64,000 nt of DNA from Polaromonas sp. (GTDB lineage: Bacteria; Pseudomonadota; Gammaproteobacteria; Burkholderiales; Burkholderiaceae_C). Shown here one piece after another: positions 5,352 through 18,423 of the stretch (positions are counted from its first letter, which is position 1; the number at the start of each line of letters is the position of its first letter). Under the pieces are notes generated by a model. That model was not told the DNA's origin and searched no databases. It worked only from the letters and a program-made list of their open reading frames with translations. The stretch spans positions 3,033 to 67,032 of the forward strand of contig NZ_JADMJK010000096.1 of assembly GCF_018780625.1 (NCBI RefSeq), given 5' to 3'. The position numbers and the translations under genes are program-made.

Positions 5352-5783
5352 ATGCGTCGCTTTACCTTCGTCCTCATGATCGCCCTGCTGCTGTTGCGCG
5401 GCTGGATGGGCGAAGCCATGGCGACCGGGATGGCGCTGGCGCCGTTGCAGCCCCTGCCATCGGCGACACAAACAGTCGCGGCCCATGCCCATGCGCCAAG
5501 CGCGCAAATGCATGTTGGTCATGAAACCGCAGAACCCGAGGCGCTTTACGAGGCGCAGGCTGTTCACGACTGCACTGGCGGTCCTGCCAGCGAAGATCCA
5601 TCCCATGCGGGCCCTGCCCACTGCGACGCCTGCACAGCCTGCCAGGCCTGCCACACCGTGGCCTTGACGCCATTTGCCGCCAGCGCCCACCCCGTTTTCA
5701 GCGCACGTGCGCTGCCCCGCGCCAAGGCAGCGTTCTTTGCCAGCGCCGACACGGCACGCGGCCAGAAACCACCGATTTCCTGA
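5352..5783 (+). CDS. Small secreted His/Cys-rich protein (CopL/DUF2946-like)
   Basis: Signal-like N-terminus; HAHAPSAQMHVGH and HCDACTACQACHTV motifs; first gene of the + strand copper cluster. Confidence 0.55.
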   Translation: MRRFTFVLMIALLLLRGWMGEAMATGMALAPLQPLPSATQTVAAHAHAPSAQMHVGHETAEPEALYEAQAVHDCTGGPASEDPSHAGPAHCDACTACQACHTVALTPFAASAHPVFSARALPRAKAAFFASADTARGQKPPIS

Positions 5784-5898: not shown

Positions 5899-6243
5899 GT
5901 GAACGTCCGTTTTATTTCAACGTCGCCCGCCAGGCTGGCGTTGCTTGCCTTTTTGGCGCTGCCGGCCGCAGCCATCGCACAGGCTGCGCCCTATCCCCAA
6001 CTCGACCCCAAGCACACCATGCAGGGCGCCAGTGCCGACACGCCCGTGCCGCCCGCGCTCTACCGCTCGGTGTTTGCCGGCCTGCCCACCGGGGTGGAAG
6101 AAACCCGCGTGGACTGGAAAAAGGCCAACGCCGACGTGGGCCAGTTCAAACGAGGCCATGCCGACCTTCTGAAATGGGAACAAGAGCAGGCCAAGGCACC
6201 GCCCAAGGCCGCTGACCGCCCTTCCGGCCCACCCACCCGCTAA
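5899..6243 (+). CDS. Small secreted hypothetical protein of copper cluster
   Basis: GTG start; signal peptide (ARLALLAFLALPAAAIAQA); ends 9 bp before the TolC-family gene. Confidence 0.6.
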   Translation: MNVRFISTSPARLALLAFLALPAAAIAQAAPYPQLDPKHTMQGASADTPVPPALYRSVFAGLPTGVEETRVDWKKANADVGQFKRGHADLLKWEQEQAKAPPKAADRPSGPPTR

Positions 6244-6251
6244 AGCGCATC

Positions 6252-7436
6252 ATGAAAAAACTTTTGAACACCCGCGCAACCCCGGCATTGCGCCTGAGTG
6301 CCATGACCGTGCTACTGCTGGCCTTGAGCGGCCAAGCGCTCGCTGCACCGGATGCCGATGGCGGCGTGGCTGGACTGCAGCAACTTCTCAATGGCAAGCT
6401 GGTGGGTTTGGGCGACACCAGCGTCCCGATTGCCCGTCCGGGCGCAGACACAAGCGCCCTGGTGAACGAGTTGCTGAAAGCGCCGCTTGGCGCGGAAGCG
6501 GCCGTGCGCATCGCTTTACTGAACAATCCTGGGCTGCAGGTGTCGCTGGGAAGCGCTGGCGTGGGCCTCTCAGACACCGTCGGCGCCGCCAGCCCGGCCA
6601 GACGCAAGGCGCAGCAGACCCTCACGCGGCTGTCCACCGATGCGCGCAAGGCCTGGATTGAGGCCGTTGCCGCAGCCCAAAGCGCACGCTACGTGCGCGA
6701 GGCCAAAGAAGCCACCGAAGCCGCAGGCGAGTTGGCCAGACGCATGACGCAGGTCGGCAACATCAGCAAATTTCAGCAGGCGCGCGAACAAGCCACGCTG
6801 TCTGATGCCGCCGTGCAGCTGGCCAAATCGCAGCAGGCCGCATTCAATGCCCGCGAAAAACTCATCGTCACGCTGGGCTTGTGGGGCGCCCAAACAGGGT
6901 TTGAACTGCCCGGCGAACTGCCTGCGCTGCCGCCCCAAGCACAGGACCTGCCCGACATCGAAACCCGCGTGCTCAAACAGAGCGAGGCGCTGCGCCTGGC
7001 ACAAGTCCAGTGGCAACGCCAGTTGGCAGGGCCACGTCCGGCCAGCGCAGATGACCTGTGGGATGCCATGGGCGACGCGGCCACCGTACGCGAGTTGGCG
7101 GTCAAAACGCGCAGCGAAGCGCGCCAGGCCTACAACGACTACCGCACCACTTACGACCTGGCGCGGCATTACCGTGACGAGGTGATGCCGCTGCGCAAGT
7201 TCATCAACGACGAGGTGGTGCTGCGCTACAACGGCATGCTGCTCAGCGTGTTTGACCTGCTGGCCGATACACGCGCGCAGGTGCTTGCCACAGGCAGCGC
7301 CATCGAGGCACAGCGCGACTTCTGGCTCGCCGAGGCCGAGCTGCAAGCGATGCTGGCGGGCGCACCAGTGGCGCTTTCCTCCGGCGCGCCAGCTTCAAGC
7401 GGCACCGCAGCCGGTGGCGCTGCCGCCGCGCACTGA
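6252..7436 (+). CDS. TolC-family protein lacking apparent beta-barrel segments
   Basis: AAVRIALLNNPGLQ, ELARRMTQVGNISKFQQAREQA, LIVTLGLWG, YRTTYDLARHYRDEVMPLRKFINDEVVLRYNGMLLSVFDLLADTRAQV are TolC-family alpha-hairpin signatures. Confidence 0.85.
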   Translation: MKKLLNTRATPALRLSAMTVLLLALSGQALAAPDADGGVAGLQQLLNGKLVGLGDTSVPIARPGADTSALVNELLKAPLGAEAAVRIALLNNPGLQVSLGSAGVGLSDTVGAASPARRKAQQTLTRLSTDARKAWIEAVAAAQSARYVREAKEATEAAGELARRMTQVGNISKFQQAREQATLSDAAVQLAKSQQAAFNAREKLIVTLGLWGAQTGFELPGELPALPPQAQDLPDIETRVLKQSEALRLAQVQWQRQLAGPRPASADDLWDAMGDAATVRELAVKTRSEARQAYNDYRTTYDLARHYRDEVMPLRKFINDEVVLRYNGMLLSVFDLLADTRAQVLATGSAIEAQRDFWLAEAELQAMLAGAPVALSSGAPASSGTAAGGAAAAH

Positions 7437-7466: not shown

Positions 7467-8861
7467 ATGAATCGACGACATTTTTTCAACGGTGCGGCGC
7501 TCACAGCCGTCGCAGCGGCCTCGGTCAGCCGGGTCGCCATGGCCGCCCTGCCGGAGCCGGTCATCATGAGCGGGGCGGACACCGCGCCGCCGCTCGTCCC
7601 GTCCAGCGGGCGGCCCTACAACCCGGTGGTCACACTCAATGGCTGGACCTTGCCCTGGCGCATGAACAACGGCGTGAAGGAGTTTCACCTGGTGGCCGAG
7701 CCGGTGGTGCGCGAGATGACCCCGGGCTTCAAGGCCCACATGTGGGGCTACAACGGCCAGAGCCCCGGCCCCACGATCGAGGTGGTCGAAGGCGACCGGG
7801 TGCGCGTGTTCGTGACCAACAAGCTGCCTGAGCACACCAGCGTGCACTGGCACGGCCAGCGCTTGCCCAGCGGCATGGACGGCGTGTCGGGCCTGAACCA
7901 GCCGGCAATTCCGGTCGGCAAGACTTTTGTCTACGAGTTCATGGCGCGCCGCCCCGGCACCTTCATGTACCACCCGCATGCCGACGAAATGACGCAGATG
8001 GCGATGGGCATGATGGGTTTCTGGGTGACCCACCCCAAAGGCAAACACCCGCTGATTGACGAGGTGGACCGCGACTTCGTGTTCCTGCTCAACGCCTACG
8101 ACATCGACCCCGGCACCATGACGCCCAAGATCATGACCATGACGGACTTCAATCTGTGGTCATGGAACAGCCGGATTTTCCCGGGTATAGACACACTCAA
8201 TGTGCGCTTGGGCGACAAGGTGCGGATCCGCATTGGCAACCTCACCATGACCAACCACCCCATCCACCTGCATGGCCACGAGTTCAAGGTCACGGGCAGC
8301 GACGGCGGGCCGTGGCCCATGGCGGCACGTGCCCCCGAAGTCACCACCGATGTGGCCGTGGGCCAGATGCGGCAGCTTGATTTTCTGGCCGACGAAGAAG
8401 GCGACTGGGCCTTTCATTGCCACAAGAGCCACCACACCATGAACGCCATGGGCCACGCCATTCCCACCACGATTGGCGTGGACCATCGCGGCCTCGTCAA
8501 AAAACTGCAAAAAGTCATGCCCGACTACATGATGATGGGCGAGCGCGGCATGGCCGACATGGGCGAGATGGAAATGCAGATCCCCGAAAACACCGCACCG
8601 ATGATGACCGGCACCGGCCCTTACGGCGGCGTGGAAATGGGCGGCATGTTCAGCATCCTCAAGGTCCGAAAAAACCAAAAGCCTGGCGACTACAAGGACC
8701 CCGGCTGGTATAAGCAGCCGGCCGGCACCCAAGCCTATGAATGGACAGGCGCACTGCCCGATCCTGCGCGCATGAAGGCAAGCAGCACAGCCATGCCGGC
8801 AACCGCAGGCCCCGGCACCGAAGTCCAGATCCGTAAACCCATGGGCAACATGGCCCACTAA
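7467..8861 (+). CDS. Two-domain multicopper oxidase (copper oxidase)
   Basis: Twin-Arg-like start MNRRHFFNGA; HWHGQRLP, MYHPHADEM, HPIHLHGHEF, HCHKSHHTMNAMGH copper motifs; Met-rich C-terminus. Confidence 0.9.
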   Translation: MNRRHFFNGAALTAVAAASVSRVAMAALPEPVIMSGADTAPPLVPSSGRPYNPVVTLNGWTLPWRMNNGVKEFHLVAEPVVREMTPGFKAHMWGYNGQSPGPTIEVVEGDRVRVFVTNKLPEHTSVHWHGQRLPSGMDGVSGLNQPAIPVGKTFVYEFMARRPGTFMYHPHADEMTQMAMGMMGFWVTHPKGKHPLIDEVDRDFVFLLNAYDIDPGTMTPKIMTMTDFNLWSWNSRIFPGIDTLNVRLGDKVRIRIGNLTMTNHPIHLHGHEFKVTGSDGGPWPMAARAPEVTTDVAVGQMRQLDFLADEEGDWAFHCHKSHHTMNAMGHAIPTTIGVDHRGLVKKLQKVMPDYMMMGERGMADMGEMEMQIPENTAPMMTGTGPYGGVEMGGMFSILKVRKNQKPGDYKDPGWYKQPAGTQAYEWTGALPDPARMKASSTAMPATAGPGTEVQIRKPMGNMAH

Positions 8862-8898: not shown

Positions 8899-9399
8899 TT
8901 GAAAAATACAATCAAACTCATCGCTGCTTGTGCAGTATTGGCGAGCGTCACAGGCACTTTTGCAGCAGGCAGTCACGGCGGCGGGCATGATGCGCAAGTC
9001 GTCGGCAAACCCGGCGTCGCCAGCAAGGTGACCCGCACCATCGAGGTTGACATGAGCGACACCATGCGCTTTACGCCCGCCAACATCAAGGCCAAACAAG
9101 GCGAGACGATCCGCTTCGTGGTGAAGAATTCGGGCCAGCTGAGCCACGAGTTTGTGCTGGGCACGGCCAAAGACCTGAAGGCGCATTACGAGGTGATGAA
9201 AAAGAACCCCGAGATGGAGCACGCCGACGACAACATGCTCACCGTCAAGCCCGGACAGACCAGTGAGATTCTGTGGCAATTCACCAAAGCGGGAACCGTT
9301 GATTTTGCTTGCCTGCATCCAGGGCACTACGACGCGGGCATGAAAGGGAAAATCGCCGTTTCACCCACTAAACGGAATGCCGAATTGGCTTCCAGGTAA
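8899..9399 (+). CDS. Cupredoxin-family copper-binding protein
   Basis: Signal peptide; MRFTPANIKAKQGETIRFVVKNSGQLSHEF and FACLHPGHYDAGMKGKIAV. Confidence 0.88.
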   Translation: MKNTIKLIAACAVLASVTGTFAAGSHGGGHDAQVVGKPGVASKVTRTIEVDMSDTMRFTPANIKAKQGETIRFVVKNSGQLSHEFVLGTAKDLKAHYEVMKKNPEMEHADDNMLTVKPGQTSEILWQFTKAGTVDFACLHPGHYDAGMKGKIAVSPTKRNAELASR

Positions 9400-9417: not shown

Positions 9418-9762
9418 ATGAACATTCTTAAAAACTTCGCCCTCGGCGCCCTGCTGGCCACAACCACCCTTGTTTCTACCAGCCTGTTGGCTCAACCCGC
9501 CATGGACATGAGCGGGATGAAGGAAAAAGGCATGAGCATGGAGATGAGCAACGGCGAGGTGAAAAAAATTGACATAGAAGCGCAAAAAATTACCCTCAAG
9601 CACGGCGAGATCAAAAGCATGGACATGCCGGGCATGACCATGGTTTTTAGAACTCAGGACCCGTCTCTGCTGGACAACCTCAAAGTCGGAGACAAGGTCA
9701 AATTCAACGCTGAAAAACGCGAAGGTTTCATCGTTGTCACGGCGATTGAAGCCATCAAGTAA
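9418..9762 (+). CDS. CusF-like periplasmic copper-binding protein
   Basis: GEVKKIDIEAQKITLKHGEIKSMDMPGMTMVFRTQDP, GDKVKF; CusF family signature. Confidence 0.88.
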   Translation: MNILKNFALGALLATTTLVSTSLLAQPAMDMSGMKEKGMSMEMSNGEVKKIDIEAQKITLKHGEIKSMDMPGMTMVFRTQDPSLLDNLKVGDKVKFNAEKREGFIVVTAIEAIK

Positions 9763-9867: not shown

Positions 9868-10368
9868 ATGATGAAAAGACGTTTTCTTATTCAAGCCCTC
9901 GCCAGCCTGGCTGGCGCTTCAGCCCTGCCGCCCAGCCTGATGGCGCAAACCAAACCGCTGGTAGAGGTCTGGAAAGACCCCGACTGCGGCTGCTGCCAGG
10001 ACTGGATCAGCCACCTGGAAGCCAACGGGTTTCGGGTCAAGGTACAAGGCAGCGGCAACACGGCCGCACGGGCACGGCTGGGCGTGCCTGACAAACTGGG
10101 CTCCTGCCACACCGCGCAGGTCGGCGGCTATGCCCTTGAGGGCCATGTTCCAGCCCGCGACATTCACCAGATCCTGAAGGAGCGCCCCAAGGCCATTGGT
10201 CTTGCAGTGCCGGGTATGCCTGTCGGCTCACCAGGCATGGACGGGCCAGCCTATGGGGGACGCAAGGACCCGTATGACGTGCTGCTCGTGCTTGCGGACG
10301 GCAACTCCCGTATCTATCAGTCTTATCCCTCAAGCCAGTTGCAAGCGCCTAAAAAGAAATCATCATGA
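9868..10368 (+). CDS. DUF411 domain metal-binding protein
   Basis: VEVWKDPDCGCCQDWISHLEANGFRVKV; LGSCHTAQVGGYALEGHVPARDI; PGMPVGSPGMD; start at MMKRRFLIQ. Confidence 0.88.
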   Translation: MMKRRFLIQALASLAGASALPPSLMAQTKPLVEVWKDPDCGCCQDWISHLEANGFRVKVQGSGNTAARARLGVPDKLGSCHTAQVGGYALEGHVPARDIHQILKERPKAIGLAVPGMPVGSPGMDGPAYGGRKDPYDVLLVLADGNSRIYQSYPSSQLQAPKKKSS

Positions 10369-10440: not shown

Positions 10441-11484
10441 TCACGGCGTCACGCTAATGCCGTTGGGCCCCTTTTCCACGCGAACGGTCGCAACGACCTT
10501 GCGATCCTTGACGTCAAGCACAGACACCGAGTTGGCGTAGATATTGGTGACGTAAGCGTATCGTCCGTCACGGTCGACGACCACGCCATGCGCACCGGCG
10601 CCGGTCACGATTGTCTTTGCGACCTTGAAACTCTCCAGATCAATCAGGCTGACCGTGCTGCCAGGCTTCTTGCGCGTACCCTGGTTGGCCACCAGCAGCG
10701 TGCGCGAGTCCGGCGTGGCGTACAGCTGGATCGGCACCGACCCGACAGCAACCTTGCGAATCACCTTGCGCGTGGCCGGGTCGATCACGGCGACGGCGTT
10801 TTCCTCAGACAGCGAGACAAAGGCAAGGCGGCCGTCCGGCGCGAAGCCGACCTGCGCCGGGCCCTTGCCTGCTGGAATTTTCGCTACCTCCTTTTGGTTT
10901 ACGGTATCGATCACCGACACTGTACCGCCCTTGAGGTTGGCGACGTAGACCTGCTTGCCGTCCGGGCTGATCCGAAGACCGTGAGGAAACTGGCCGACCG
11001 GAATCGTCGCCACGAGGTGATGCGCCGATGTGTCGATCACACTGACCGTGTTGTCGCCACCGTTGGTGACGTAGGCGAAGCGGCCGTCGGGCGACACCAC
11101 CACATGGGCCGGGTGCATGCCAACCGGAACCTTGGCGACGACGGCGTCGCTACTGGTATCGATGGCCCAGACCGCCCCGGGCTTTCCCATTGCATCGTGC
11201 TCGCCCTGGGCCATGCCCTTGTGCGCAGAAGTGTCAGCCGCCTGGCCAGGCTCGCCGTTGTTGGTCACCCATACGAGCTTGCCGTCGGGCGATACCTGCA
11301 CGTTGTGCGGCATCTTGCCGACGCGCACGCTCGCCAGCGTTTTGAACGAAGCGGCATCGAGCACGCTGACCGTGTCAGCGCCCTCATTGGCTACATACAC
11401 CTTGTCGGCGGCCAGGGTGGCGCCAGACCAGGCCAGCAGGGCCATCTGCACCGTTGTCAAAAGCCAGTTGTCTTTTCTTGCCAT
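10441..11484 (-). CDS. YVTN-family beta-propeller repeat protein
   Basis: Repeated VYVANEGADTVSVLD / AYVTNGGDNTVSVID / VYVANLKGGTVSVID blades; start chosen at MARKDNWLL. Confidence 0.88.
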   Translation of the reverse strand: MARKDNWLLTTVQMALLAWSGATLAADKVYVANEGADTVSVLDAASFKTLASVRVGKMPHNVQVSPDGKLVWVTNNGEPGQAADTSAHKGMAQGEHDAMGKPGAVWAIDTSSDAVVAKVPVGMHPAHVVVSPDGRFAYVTNGGDNTVSVIDTSAHHLVATIPVGQFPHGLRISPDGKQVYVANLKGGTVSVIDTVNQKEVAKIPAGKGPAQVGFAPDGRLAFVSLSEENAVAVIDPATRKVIRKVAVGSVPIQLYATPDSRTLLVANQGTRKKPGSTVSLIDLESFKVAKTIVTGAGAHGVVVDRDGRYAYVTNIYANSVSVLDVKDRKVVATVRVEKGPNGISVTP

Positions 11485-11536
11485 CACGATCCATCCTTGT
11501 TGATAAAAATCAGGCGAAATCTTCCGAACTGCGGCG

Positions 11537-13861
11537 TCATGTCTTGCTGCGCCGCAAACGCAGCGCATTACCAATCACAGACACCGAGCTGAAACTCATG
11601 GCCAGCGCCGCGATCAACGGCGACAGCAGCCAGCCGGTCAGCGGGTACAGCACCCCAGCCGCAATCGGGATACCCAGCGCGTTGTACAAAAAGGCAAATA
11701 CCAGGTTCTGCTTCATGTTGCCCACCGTCGCTTCCGATAGCGCACGCGCAACTGCAATCCCGCGCAGATCGCCCTTGACCAGCGTGACCTGCGCGCTGTT
11801 CATGGCCACGTCGGTCCCGGTACCCATGGCCACGCCAACATCGGCCTTGGCCAGCGCTGGCGCATCGTTGATGCCGTCTCCGGCCATCGCCACGACGCGG
11901 CCTTCCTTTTGCAGTTTCTCCACCAGCAGCAGCTTGTCGGCCGGCTTGACCTCACCATGGACCTCGTCGATGCCCAGGCGGGCTGCAACAGCCTTGGCCG
12001 TGGTCAGTCCGTCACCGGTCGCCATCACGATGCGCAGCCCGGCCGCTTTCAGCGTCGCCAGCGCCTCGGGCGTGCTGGACTTGATCGGGTCGGACACAGC
12101 CAGCAGGCCCATCAGCTGGCCATCGACTGCCAGGTGCATCACGCTGGCGCCTTCTGCGCGCAAGGCCTCGGCCTGCGGCACCAGGGCCGCGACCGAAACG
12201 CCAATCTGCTCCATCAGCGTGGTGTTGCCCAGCGCCAGCTGACGCCCGGCCACCTGCCCACGCACGCCGATGCCTGAGCCGGACTCGAAGTTCTCGGGCT
12301 TGTCCAGCACCATGCCGCGTTCGCGGGCGGCGCGCACGATGGTTTCGGCCAGCGGATGCTCGCTGCCCTGGTCCAGGCTGGCAGCCAGGCGCAGCACCTC
12401 GTCGGCCTCAAAGCCGGGCGCGGGAACGGCACGCTCAAACGTGGGGCGGCCCTCGGTGAGCGTACCGGTCTTGTCGATGATGAGGGTGTCGATCTTGCGC
12501 ATGTTCTCGATGGCCGCGGCATCGCGGAACAGCACGCCGTGCGTCGCGCCCAGGCCGGTGGCGACCATGATGGACATGGGTGTGGCCAGGCCCAGCGCGC
12601 AGGGGCAGGCAATGATCAGCACCGACACCGCGTTGATCAGGCCGAACACCCAGCGCGGCTCGGGACCAAACAGGCCCCAGCCGAAGAAGGTCAGCACGGC
12701 AATGCCCACCACCGTGACGACGAAGTAGCCCGCCACCACGTCGGCCATGCGCTGCATCGGCGCCCGGGAACGCTGGGCCTGGGCCACCATCTGCACGATC
12801 TGGGCCAGCATGGTGGACGCGCCGACGCGTTCAGCGCGCATCACCAGCGCGCCGCTGGTGTTGAGCGTGGCGCCTATCACCTTGTCGCCCACGCGCTTGG
12901 CCACCGGCATGGGCTCGCCCGTGAGCATCGACTCATCGACCGAACTGCCACCTTCGCTCACCACGCCATCGACCGGAACTTTTTCTCCGGGGCGCACGCG
13001 CAGCAAGTCGCCCACATGCACATGGTTCAGTGGCACGTCCTCTTCGGTGCCATCTTCCCGGATACGGCGGGCGGTTTTGGGCGCCAGACCCAGCAGCGAC
13101 TTGATCGCCGCCGAGGTCTGCGACCGGGCCTTGAGTTCGAGCACCTGGCCCAGCAGCGTGAGCGAGATGATCACGGCGGCCGCTTCAAAGTACACGGCGA
13201 CGCGGCCCATGGAGATGAACGAGGCCGGAAACACCTGGGGAGCGACCGTCGCCACCACGCTGTAAACGAAGGCGGCGCCGGTGCCCAGACCAATCAAGGT
13301 CCACATGTTGGGACTGCGGTTCACCACGGACTGCCATCCGCGCGAGAAGAATGGCCAGCCGGCCCAGAGGACGATGGGGATCGACAGCACCAGTTCAATC
13401 CAGGTCTGGGTAGTGGATTCAAACCACTGCATTTGATGGCCGAACATCGCCAAAACAGTGACCACGACAGTCAGCGGCAGCGTCCACCAGAAGCGGCGCT
13501 GAAAATCGCGCAATTCAGGGTTTTCATCGTCACCCAGTTCCGGCAGCAAGGGCTCGAGCGTCATGCCGCACTTGGGGCAGTTTCCCGGATGGTCCTGTCG
13601 AATCTCGGGGTGCATCGGGCAGGTGTAGATCGTGCCGGACGCCGCTGGCGGCACGTCCACAGGCAGGGAAGGTGCGAGGTATTGCATAGGGTTCGCCGCG
13701 AACTTGCCCTGGCACTTGGCGCTGCAGAAATAATAGGGCCGCCCCTCATGCGTCAGCGTGTGAGGCGACTGCTCGGTGACAGTCATGCCGCACACCGGAT
13801 CCTTGAGGTCGGTTGGCGCTGGAGGGCTGCCGCTGGGATGCTGATGCGCTTTCATGTCCAT
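11537..13861 (-). CDS. copA: Heavy-metal translocating P1B-type ATPase (Cu+/Ag+ type) with N-terminal YHS and CPMH domains
   Basis: [48 protein letters not shown]-term DPVCGMTV...[12 protein letters not shown] and [26 protein letters not shown]. Confidence 0.93.
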
Positions 13862-16767: not shown

Positions 16768-18423
16768 TCAACCCTTCACGCGAAAGTTGATCATCATGCC
16801 GCCATCTTCGTGTTCCAGGTTGTGGCAATGGAAGACATAGGTCTGGTCACCGGGGAAGTCGTGGGCGAAGTCGATCGCCACCCGCACCGTTTCGCCGGGC
16901 CAGACCAGCACGGTGTCCTTCCAGCCGAGGTCGCTCACGGTGCGGCCCTTGCCGAAACGCGCCGTGGCCGCGACCTGGGGCGGGCTGCCGATGCGTTCGA
17001 GCACCTGGAACGAAAAGCCGTGGATGTGCATCGGGTGCGGCATGCCCATCGTCGGGTTGCTGATGTTCCAGATTTCCACCGCGCCGCGTTTGACGTCGAA
17101 CGCGATCTCGTCCATGTGGAAGGTGCGTCCGTTGATCAGGAAGCGCATCTGTCCCATCGACAGCTCGATCTTGCGCTGCGCGGCGCCTTCGGTTCGGATC
17201 GGCTTGACCTGGGACAGCGTGGCCGGCAGTTTGGCGGCGACGCGATCGCCGGCCGTCACCGACAGCTTCAACACGTTGAACTCCGCGCCCAGCGGCAGCC
17301 GTGACGAGCTCATGCTGGCCATCATCCGCCCCATGCCCATACCACCCATACCACCCATACCACCAGTTCCGCCAGCAGGCCCTTCGTTTTCCATGGCATC
17401 GAACGTCAGGCTCCTGAGGAAGATGTCCTCACCGGGCTGCGCCTGGCCCGCGTCGAACAGCACATCGAGGCGCTCGCCCGGCGCGAGAAAGGCCTCGGTC
17501 ACAGTTTCGGGCCGCTCGATCAGGCCGCCGTCGGTGCCGATGACGGTGAAATCCAGCGGCGTGCTGCCCTTGACGAAGGCAAGCCGGTAGATGCGTGCAT
17601 TCGATCCATTGAGAAGCCGCAGGCGATAGGTGCGCGGGGTGACGGCCTGGACCGCATTGGGCGTCAGGTTGGCGAGCACGATGTCGCCGAGCCAGCCCAT
17701 CATGGCTTCATGGGCATCAGGCTTGTACAACAGCTTGCCCTGCGCGTCGAACTGCTTGTCCTGGATGACCAGGGGCAGGTCGGTGACGCCGAGTTGCAAG
17801 TCAAGCGACTTGCTCAGCCGGCGCTGGTCGTCGTCGTCCACCAGGAAGAAACTCGCCAGGCCGTGGTAGGCCTGCTCGGCGGTCAGCTCGTGGGCATGCG
17901 TGTGGTACCAGTAGGTGCCGCCGCGGTTGCTCACTTTGAAGTCGTACGCGTAGCGCCCGCCGGGGCCGATGGTACTGGCCGGGTGGCCGTCCATGGCGGC
18001 GGGCGTGTGCAGGCCGTGCCAGTGGATGATGGTCGGCTCGGCCAGCGCGTTGTCCAGGCTGGCCGTGAAGCGCGCGCCGCTCTCGATGCGCAATATCGGG
18101 TTCTGGTAGGCCTTGCCCGCCTGCTCGGTCTGGTACAGCAGGAACGGCGATTCGCGGCCGGGCAGAAGCGGGAAGCTCGCCGCAACGGTGCGGATTTTCA
18201 GCGGCCCGGCGACATCGAGCACCCCGAACGGCCCGCTGCCCACAGGGATGAACAGCTTTTGCTGGAAGTTCGCGGCGGCGACCGGATCGAAGGGATAGTG
18301 GCGAAACGGCCCGCCAGCCAGCGCGTTGGAACGAGGCGATCCGTAATACATCCAACCGGCCCCACCGGTGGCGGCCACGGCCGCTACCCCGCCAAACTGA
18401 AGCAATTGTCTTCTTTGTAACAT
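16768..18423 (-). CDS. Multicopper oxidase (three-domain, CueO/CopA-like)
   Basis: HWHGLHTP, YWYHTHAHELTAEQAYHGL, HPMHIHGFSFQVLER, HCHNLEHEDGGMM; Met/Gly-rich insertion GGTGGMGGMGGMGMGRMMASM. Confidence 0.92.
   Translation of the reverse strand: MLQRRQLLQFGGVAAVAATGGAGWMYYGSPRSNALAGGPFRHYPFDPVAAANFQQKLFIPVGSGPFGVLDVAGPLKIRTVAASFPLLPGRESPFLLYQTEQAGKAYQNPILRIESGARFTASLDNALAEPTIIHWHGLHTPAAMDGHPASTIGPGGRYAYDFKVSNRGGTYWYHTHAHELTAEQAYHGLASFFLVDDDDQRRLSKSLDLQLGVTDLPLVIQDKQFDAQGKLLYKPDAHEAMMGWLGDIVLANLTPNAVQAVTPRTYRLRLLNGSNARIYRLAFVKGSTPLDFTVIGTDGGLIERPETVTEAFLAPGERLDVLFDAGQAQPGEDIFLRSLTFDAMENEGPAGGTGGMGGMGGMGMGRMMASMSSSRLPLGAEFNVLKLSVTAGDRVAAKLPATLSQVKPIRTEGAAQRKIELSMGQMRFLINGRTFHMDEIAFDVKRGAVEIWNISNPTMGMPHPMHIHGFSFQVLERIGSPPQVAATARFGKGRTVSDLGWKDTVLVWPGETVRVAIDFAHDFPGDQTYVFHCHNLEHEDGGMMINFRVKG

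Follow-up and report, generated by a model that had tools for sequence, protein, structure and literature searches.

The window, that is, the whole 64-kb stretch of DNA analysed here, carries on its plus strand a copper operon in which a TolC-like gene is followed by that of a multicopper oxidase (MCO). The open reading frame at 6252-7436 (+) is intact and encodes a protein of 394 aa, in which the TolC-type landmark motifs quoted by the initial annotation are present. The features of the operon and of this protein are as follows.

5352..5783, plus strand: DUF2946/CopL-like small exported protein, first gene of the conserved operon; profile matches below the curated cut-offs
5899..6243, plus strand: smallN, an exported protein of ~114 aa with the motif DWKxANxxVGQFxRGHxDxLKWE
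6252..7436, plus strand: barrel-less protein derived from a TolC-type outer-membrane factor (OMF); export signal without lipobox Cys (residues ~1-31); two long hairpins in the AlphaFold2 model (helices 115-167/173-208 and 266-327/333-368); low-complexity Ala/Gly C-terminal tail
6565..6615, plus strand: site 1, first beta-hairpin missing, 45 residues fewer than in full-length homologues; junction after residue 113, at about 6590/6591
6732..6791, plus strand: periplasmic tip of the first helical hairpin, GELARRMTQVGNISKFQQAR region; good conservation with full-length forms
7014..7090, plus strand: site 2, second beta-hairpin missing, net 46-47 residues fewer; junction at about residue 260, at about 7031/7032
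7212..7277, plus strand: periplasmic tip of the second helical hairpin, EVVLRYNGMLLSVFDLLADTRA region; equally conserved in barrel-less and full-length forms
7467..8861, plus strand: MCO, 464 aa, with a twin-arginine-type signal; main Cu-ligand motifs HWHG, HPHAD and HPIHLHGH all kept
8899..9399, plus strand: cupredoxin (CopI/plastocyanin-like)
9418..9762, plus strand: CusF-like periplasmic copper-binding protein
9868..10368, plus strand: DUF411 protein with a DCGCC motif, last gene of the conserved operon

Convergent with the operon, genes for a YVTN beta-propeller protein and a CopA-type copper ATPase occupy 10441-13861 on the minus strand of the window, and genes of both kinds recur near several related operons. 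A second, larger MCO-like open reading frame (551 aa; 16768-18423, minus strand) lies about 6 kb past the copper operon and contains the Met/Gly-rich stretch GGMGGMGGMGMGRMM.

OMFs are textbook outer-membrane ducts. Relatives of the window protein were gathered from GTDB species genomes and then aligned, as a set of about 100 homologues and later as one of 150 sequences. In the former alignment, the window protein matched full-length TolC-type lipoproteins of the same operon type over its whole length, except that about 45 and about 47 residues are cleanly missing at exactly the two places where these relatives carry barrel strands. It has 18 residues at site 1 versus 63-67 in the full-length forms, and 30 at site 2 versus 71-78, while the other segments are colinear (18/18, 128 versus 126-131 in the helical middle, and 90/90 at the end). 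The gaps fall after residue 113 and at about residue 260, the second junction being uncertain by some 10 residues, and both lie within the stretches in which the initial annotation had placed them. The absent segments correspond to residues 97-141 and 289-337 of the model of L014, a full-length relative, where they are written TLPNPHFSIGRFVEGRKVEIERGIGFNVIGLLTLPWRARYQSQQH and MGLTRSTGFINALDAKYSRNTTFDNATGDKEIKRGWELELPLPIFDWGG and represent the signature segments of the barrel. In profile searches, the window protein matched PF02321 (OEP) with 26.1 bits, above the cut-off of 22, but its best stretch covered profile positions 94-187 only, whereas L014 matched positions 2-187 with 79 bits. No NCBIfam model matched the window protein.

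A sequence search of the PDB returned no relative, and a comparison of folds was therefore needed. AlphaFold2, run on a single chain with a 59-row alignment, gave a model of helices only, without any strand (pLDDT 84.4, pTM 0.82). In contrast, the model of full-length L014 (pLDDT 79.2, pTM 0.77) contained exactly four strands, at 102-110, 113-123, 302-312 and 318-327, all of which fall in the segments absent from the window protein. For both models, Foldseek against the PDB returned significant E-values only for OMFs of the TolC/OprM/CusC type; the TM-scores of the window model, which is a monomer, were so close for folded OMFs and for barrel-unfolded CusC mutants that they did not separate a trimer-like from a splayed, monomer-like form. 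The two helical hairpins per chain of an OMF are thus present in the model, and the four strands per protomer are absent from model and alignment alike. The window protein has lost both beta-hairpins, as had been proposed from the sequence, and we consider this nearly certain.

Barrel-less orthologues, which we call clade A, were found in 25 genomes of two genera: 18 of the 87 genomes of the window's genus, each with one uninterrupted match, and 7 genomes of a second genus. The orthologues thus share both deletions. An order-wide search (E<=1e-55) of 399 drawn genomes added no member to the clade, and in plasmid records the matches were all below 60% identity, none of the 30 listed standing out as barrel-less. 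In the alignment of 150 sequences, site lengths were bimodal without overlap: all 21 clade-A sequences had 18 and 30-31 residues at sites 1 and 2, and all 108 full-length forms had 63-67 and 71-78. A deletion confined to a single genome was rejected on the identical site lengths in many genomes. The single intermediate was L177 (8683-9939, plus strand, genome G057), with 38 and 46 residues, a divergent sequence of another family. In this MCO-linked TolC relative the first hairpin is mostly gone and the second reduced, with LSLPLFSG kept; it is possibly an intermediate or a separate loss. Genome G024 carries a barrel-less and a full-length MCO-linked copy together (L120 and L128), which would allow their roles to be compared within a single cell. 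The window's own genome gave one match to the subfamily, and no full-length copy was found in its assembly, which is 89% complete.

We further found a second barrel-less clade, clade B, comprising L172-L176 and L195-L210, TolC-like open reading frames 5' of the MCO with smallN at the N-terminus. It is more widespread than clade A, with near-full-length matches in 24 genomes of 11 genera, and the two clades together bring the genomes that carry the barrel loss to about fifty. The clade-B frames are short, mostly 369-416 aa from stop to stop, and lack both hairpins. Their junctions differ from those of clade A, with 26 and 6 residues at the two sites in all 21 sequences fetched. Of these loci, 20 have the gene directly upstream of the same MCO, and the remaining one lies at the end of a contig. 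Support for both clades was strong (A 100/99, B 100/100), and their neighbours in the tree were full-length forms. The fuller tree required two changes for the barrel loss. A reduced tree joined the clades with support of 33/0, and an AU test did not reject a single barrel-less clade (p 0.424). These data are compatible with one loss of the barrel as well as with two, and the different junction lengths make us lean towards two losses or later erosion.

The gene order CopL/DUF2946, smallN, TolC-like, MCO, cupredoxin, CusF/DUF411 is the same in clade A and in full-length Comamonadaceae relatives. SmallN matched no Pfam or NCBIfam family, and neither of the two small operon proteins (CopL/DUF2946-like and smallN) matched any barrel family. 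SmallN is a candidate new partner of TolC-type proteins. In clade B the barrel-less protein carries smallN as an N-terminal fusion, and the clade-A member L096 does so separately; no such fusion occurred among the full-length forms tested, and at loci with the fusion a stand-alone smallN gene was not detected. These fusions point to joint action of smallN and the barrel-less protein. A fusion of the latter to the MCO was not seen. None of 23 clade-A stretches, one of them the whole 64-kb window, contained an adaptor or RND gene; in the stretches read, such genes were clear at 2 of 20 clade-B loci and absent from 72 of 84 loci of full-length forms. The window genome encodes several RND pumps and, separate from this operon, a complete pump of the CusCBA type, which has its own OMF with a barrel. 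The suggestion that the protein had been repurposed alongside the multicopper oxidase fits the strict conservation of the operon, the smallN fusion, and the lack of adaptor and RND genes near clade-A loci.

The blocks around ELARRMTQVGN and LRYNGMLLSVF, at the two tips, are among the most conserved in barrel-less and full-length forms, and the second is not more variable in the former than in the latter. The strongest selection is therefore on the periplasmic end. We propose that a TolC-type OMF was stripped of both beta-hairpins and, in the window's lineage, of its lipid anchor as well. The product would be an all-helical protein, exported by its signal peptide to the periplasm, where the retained helical hairpins and conserved tips would contact smallN and probably the MCO of the next gene. 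Together with smallN, it would hold or stabilise the Cu(I)-oxidising MCO, and the cupredoxin, CusF and DUF411 proteins would work alongside the MCO in periplasmic copper detoxification. That the window protein resides in the periplasm and is not an outer-membrane channel we hold to be very probable. Contact with smallN is suggested by the fusions and contact with the MCO by gene order alone, and as a partner of the oxidase the protein can, from sequence, be named only tentatively. We infer a role as scaffold or stabiliser, and our confidence is evenly poised on the statement as a whole, namely an exported, all-helical periplasmic protein that is not a duct and acts as a structural or stabilising partner in copper detoxification.

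Conservation of the tips could be explained equally by docking to an adaptor encoded elsewhere. In one rival reading, a trimeric helical tube would still form, with its tips docked on an adaptor that belongs to an RND pump or to another pump and its far end in the periplasm, either as a vented conduit or as a competitor or regulator of full-length OMFs. The conserved tip motifs and the CusCBA-type system and RND pumps of the genome are compatible with such a tube. However, none of the 23 clade-A loci has an adaptor or pump gene nearby, and clade B has its fusion with smallN instead of with an adaptor. The 72 of 84 full-length loci without adaptor or RND genes further indicate that conserved tips need not be adaptor sites. 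We therefore consider the tube unlikely.

An N-terminal lipobox is a feature of this MCO-linked subfamily and is not universal among OMFs. Of 110 full-length forms, 107 had one in the aligned region and two of the other three are truncated sequences; it was kept in 4 of the 18 clade-A and none of the 5 clade-B forms tested. The window protein reads LSGQA where full-length relatives have L-x-GC, and its hydrophobic export signal is kept. CusC without its N-terminal Cys is reported to have a misfolded barrel and opened helices (PMC4486845); since this mutant fails to fold its barrel, anchor and barrel are linked. Lipobox loss is therefore in keeping with a protein that no longer has to insert into the membrane, and with the export signal retained it strengthens the view, already put forward in the initial annotation, of a soluble periplasmic helical protein. 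The four clade-A members that keep a perfect lipobox (L011, L094, L095 and L097) may, judging from this motif, still be tethered to the outer membrane, and clade A is therefore not all soluble. They speak for a helical lipoprotein that lost its barrel yet remains attached to the inner face of the outer membrane and works there, held by a lipid of its own or by a lipidated partner. Against such a tether, the Cys has been lost in the window protein and its closest relatives (LSGQA), in 14 of 18 clade-A forms and in 5 of 5 clade-B forms tested, and as an account of the window protein we regard it as decidedly unlikely.

Purifying selection on clade A is clear though somewhat relaxed, since dN/dS was 0.10-0.38 for clade-A pairs and about 0.09 for full-length pairs; clade-A alignment columns were also more variable on average. 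Both observations would suit a non-functional relic that lost its barrel and is decaying, kept by operon position only. Yet the reading frames are open at every fetched clade-A and clade-B locus, dN/dS is well below 1, the site lengths are cleanly bimodal and the spread extends to 11 genera, which makes a relic very improbable. A pseudogene was rejected on the open frames and dN/dS. Strands might also be supplied in trans, by full-length protomers mixing with the short protein or by a separate strand-bearing protein, and G024 does have a short and a full-length MCO-linked copy; since the window genome yielded one subfamily match and no full-length copy (assembly 89% complete), and neither small operon protein has a barrel-family match, we give this hardly any credence. 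An assembly or sequencing artefact, conceivable for an assembly fragmented into 259 contigs, is refuted by the same two site lengths in 21 of 21 clade-A sequences, carriers including G160 and G278 (one contig each) and G024 (9 contigs), so that full-barrel orthologues beside an assembly deletion are excluded and its probability is close to nil.

The closest comparison to the periplasmic protein proposed here is with the full-length MCO-linked TolC-family lipoproteins of Burkholderiales (such as L014, L012 and L017), which share its operon, tips, small upstream protein and colinear helices at about 41% tblastn identity. They differ in having a lipobox Cys and, in two hairpins, four predicted strands, neither of which the window protein has. 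CusC, OprM and TolC (3PIK, 1WP1 and 1EK9) have in common with it the internal repeat of helical hairpins, but they are trimeric outer-membrane ducts with a 12-strand barrel and adaptor and pump partners, whereas the window protein has no strand and its operon no partner gene. A laboratory analogue is provided by the C1S and deltaC1 mutants of CusC (4K34 and 4K7K), which lack the lipid anchor and have an unfolded barrel and splayed helices; in these engineered proteins, which are discussed in PMC4486845, the barrel residues are present but unfolded, whereas the barrel-less proteins described here are natural and the residues are gone. A TolC-like protein of Clostridioides difficile, with a "very intriguing omission" in its beta-barrel domain (PMC8809574), resembles the window protein in being a TolC homologue with an incomplete barrel. 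That organism, however, has a single membrane, an S-layer location was proposed and some barrel was still modelled (PMC8809574), whereas the host here has two membranes; and many monoderm TolC-like genes adjoin adaptor and pump genes (PMC8809574), unlike the clade-A loci. The nearest functional precedent for an MCO stabiliser is PcoB, the outer-membrane copper channel of Caulobacter, whose periplasmic part stabilises PcoA, the MCO of its own operon (PMC12509749). PcoB itself is unrelated, a barrel protein whose N-terminal domain is disordered, unlike the all-helical window protein. In the open-access literature searched, we came across no description of an OMF lacking its barrel in a two-membrane bacterium, which is not proof of absence; the C. 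difficile protein is the nearest case.

Collectively, the same loss, kept in about fifty genomes, suggests that a periplasmic helper protein arose here from a membrane channel. In the widest form of this reading, for which we claim only limited confidence, an outer-membrane export duct of two-membrane bacteria would have been converted, possibly twice, to a soluble periplasmic scaffold for a copper-oxidising MCO and later fused with its small partner; by implication, the full-length MCO-linked TolC proteins would act mainly via their periplasmic domain, and not as ducts. The natural excision of the barrel, while helices, tips, operon and selection persist, sets the two halves of an OMF apart, and indicates that the periplasmic half of a TolC-type protein has its own job in this copper operon. 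A natural barrel-free helical domain of an OMF is useful for structural work, and the role of the widespread orphan TolC protein beside MCOs is now directly testable.
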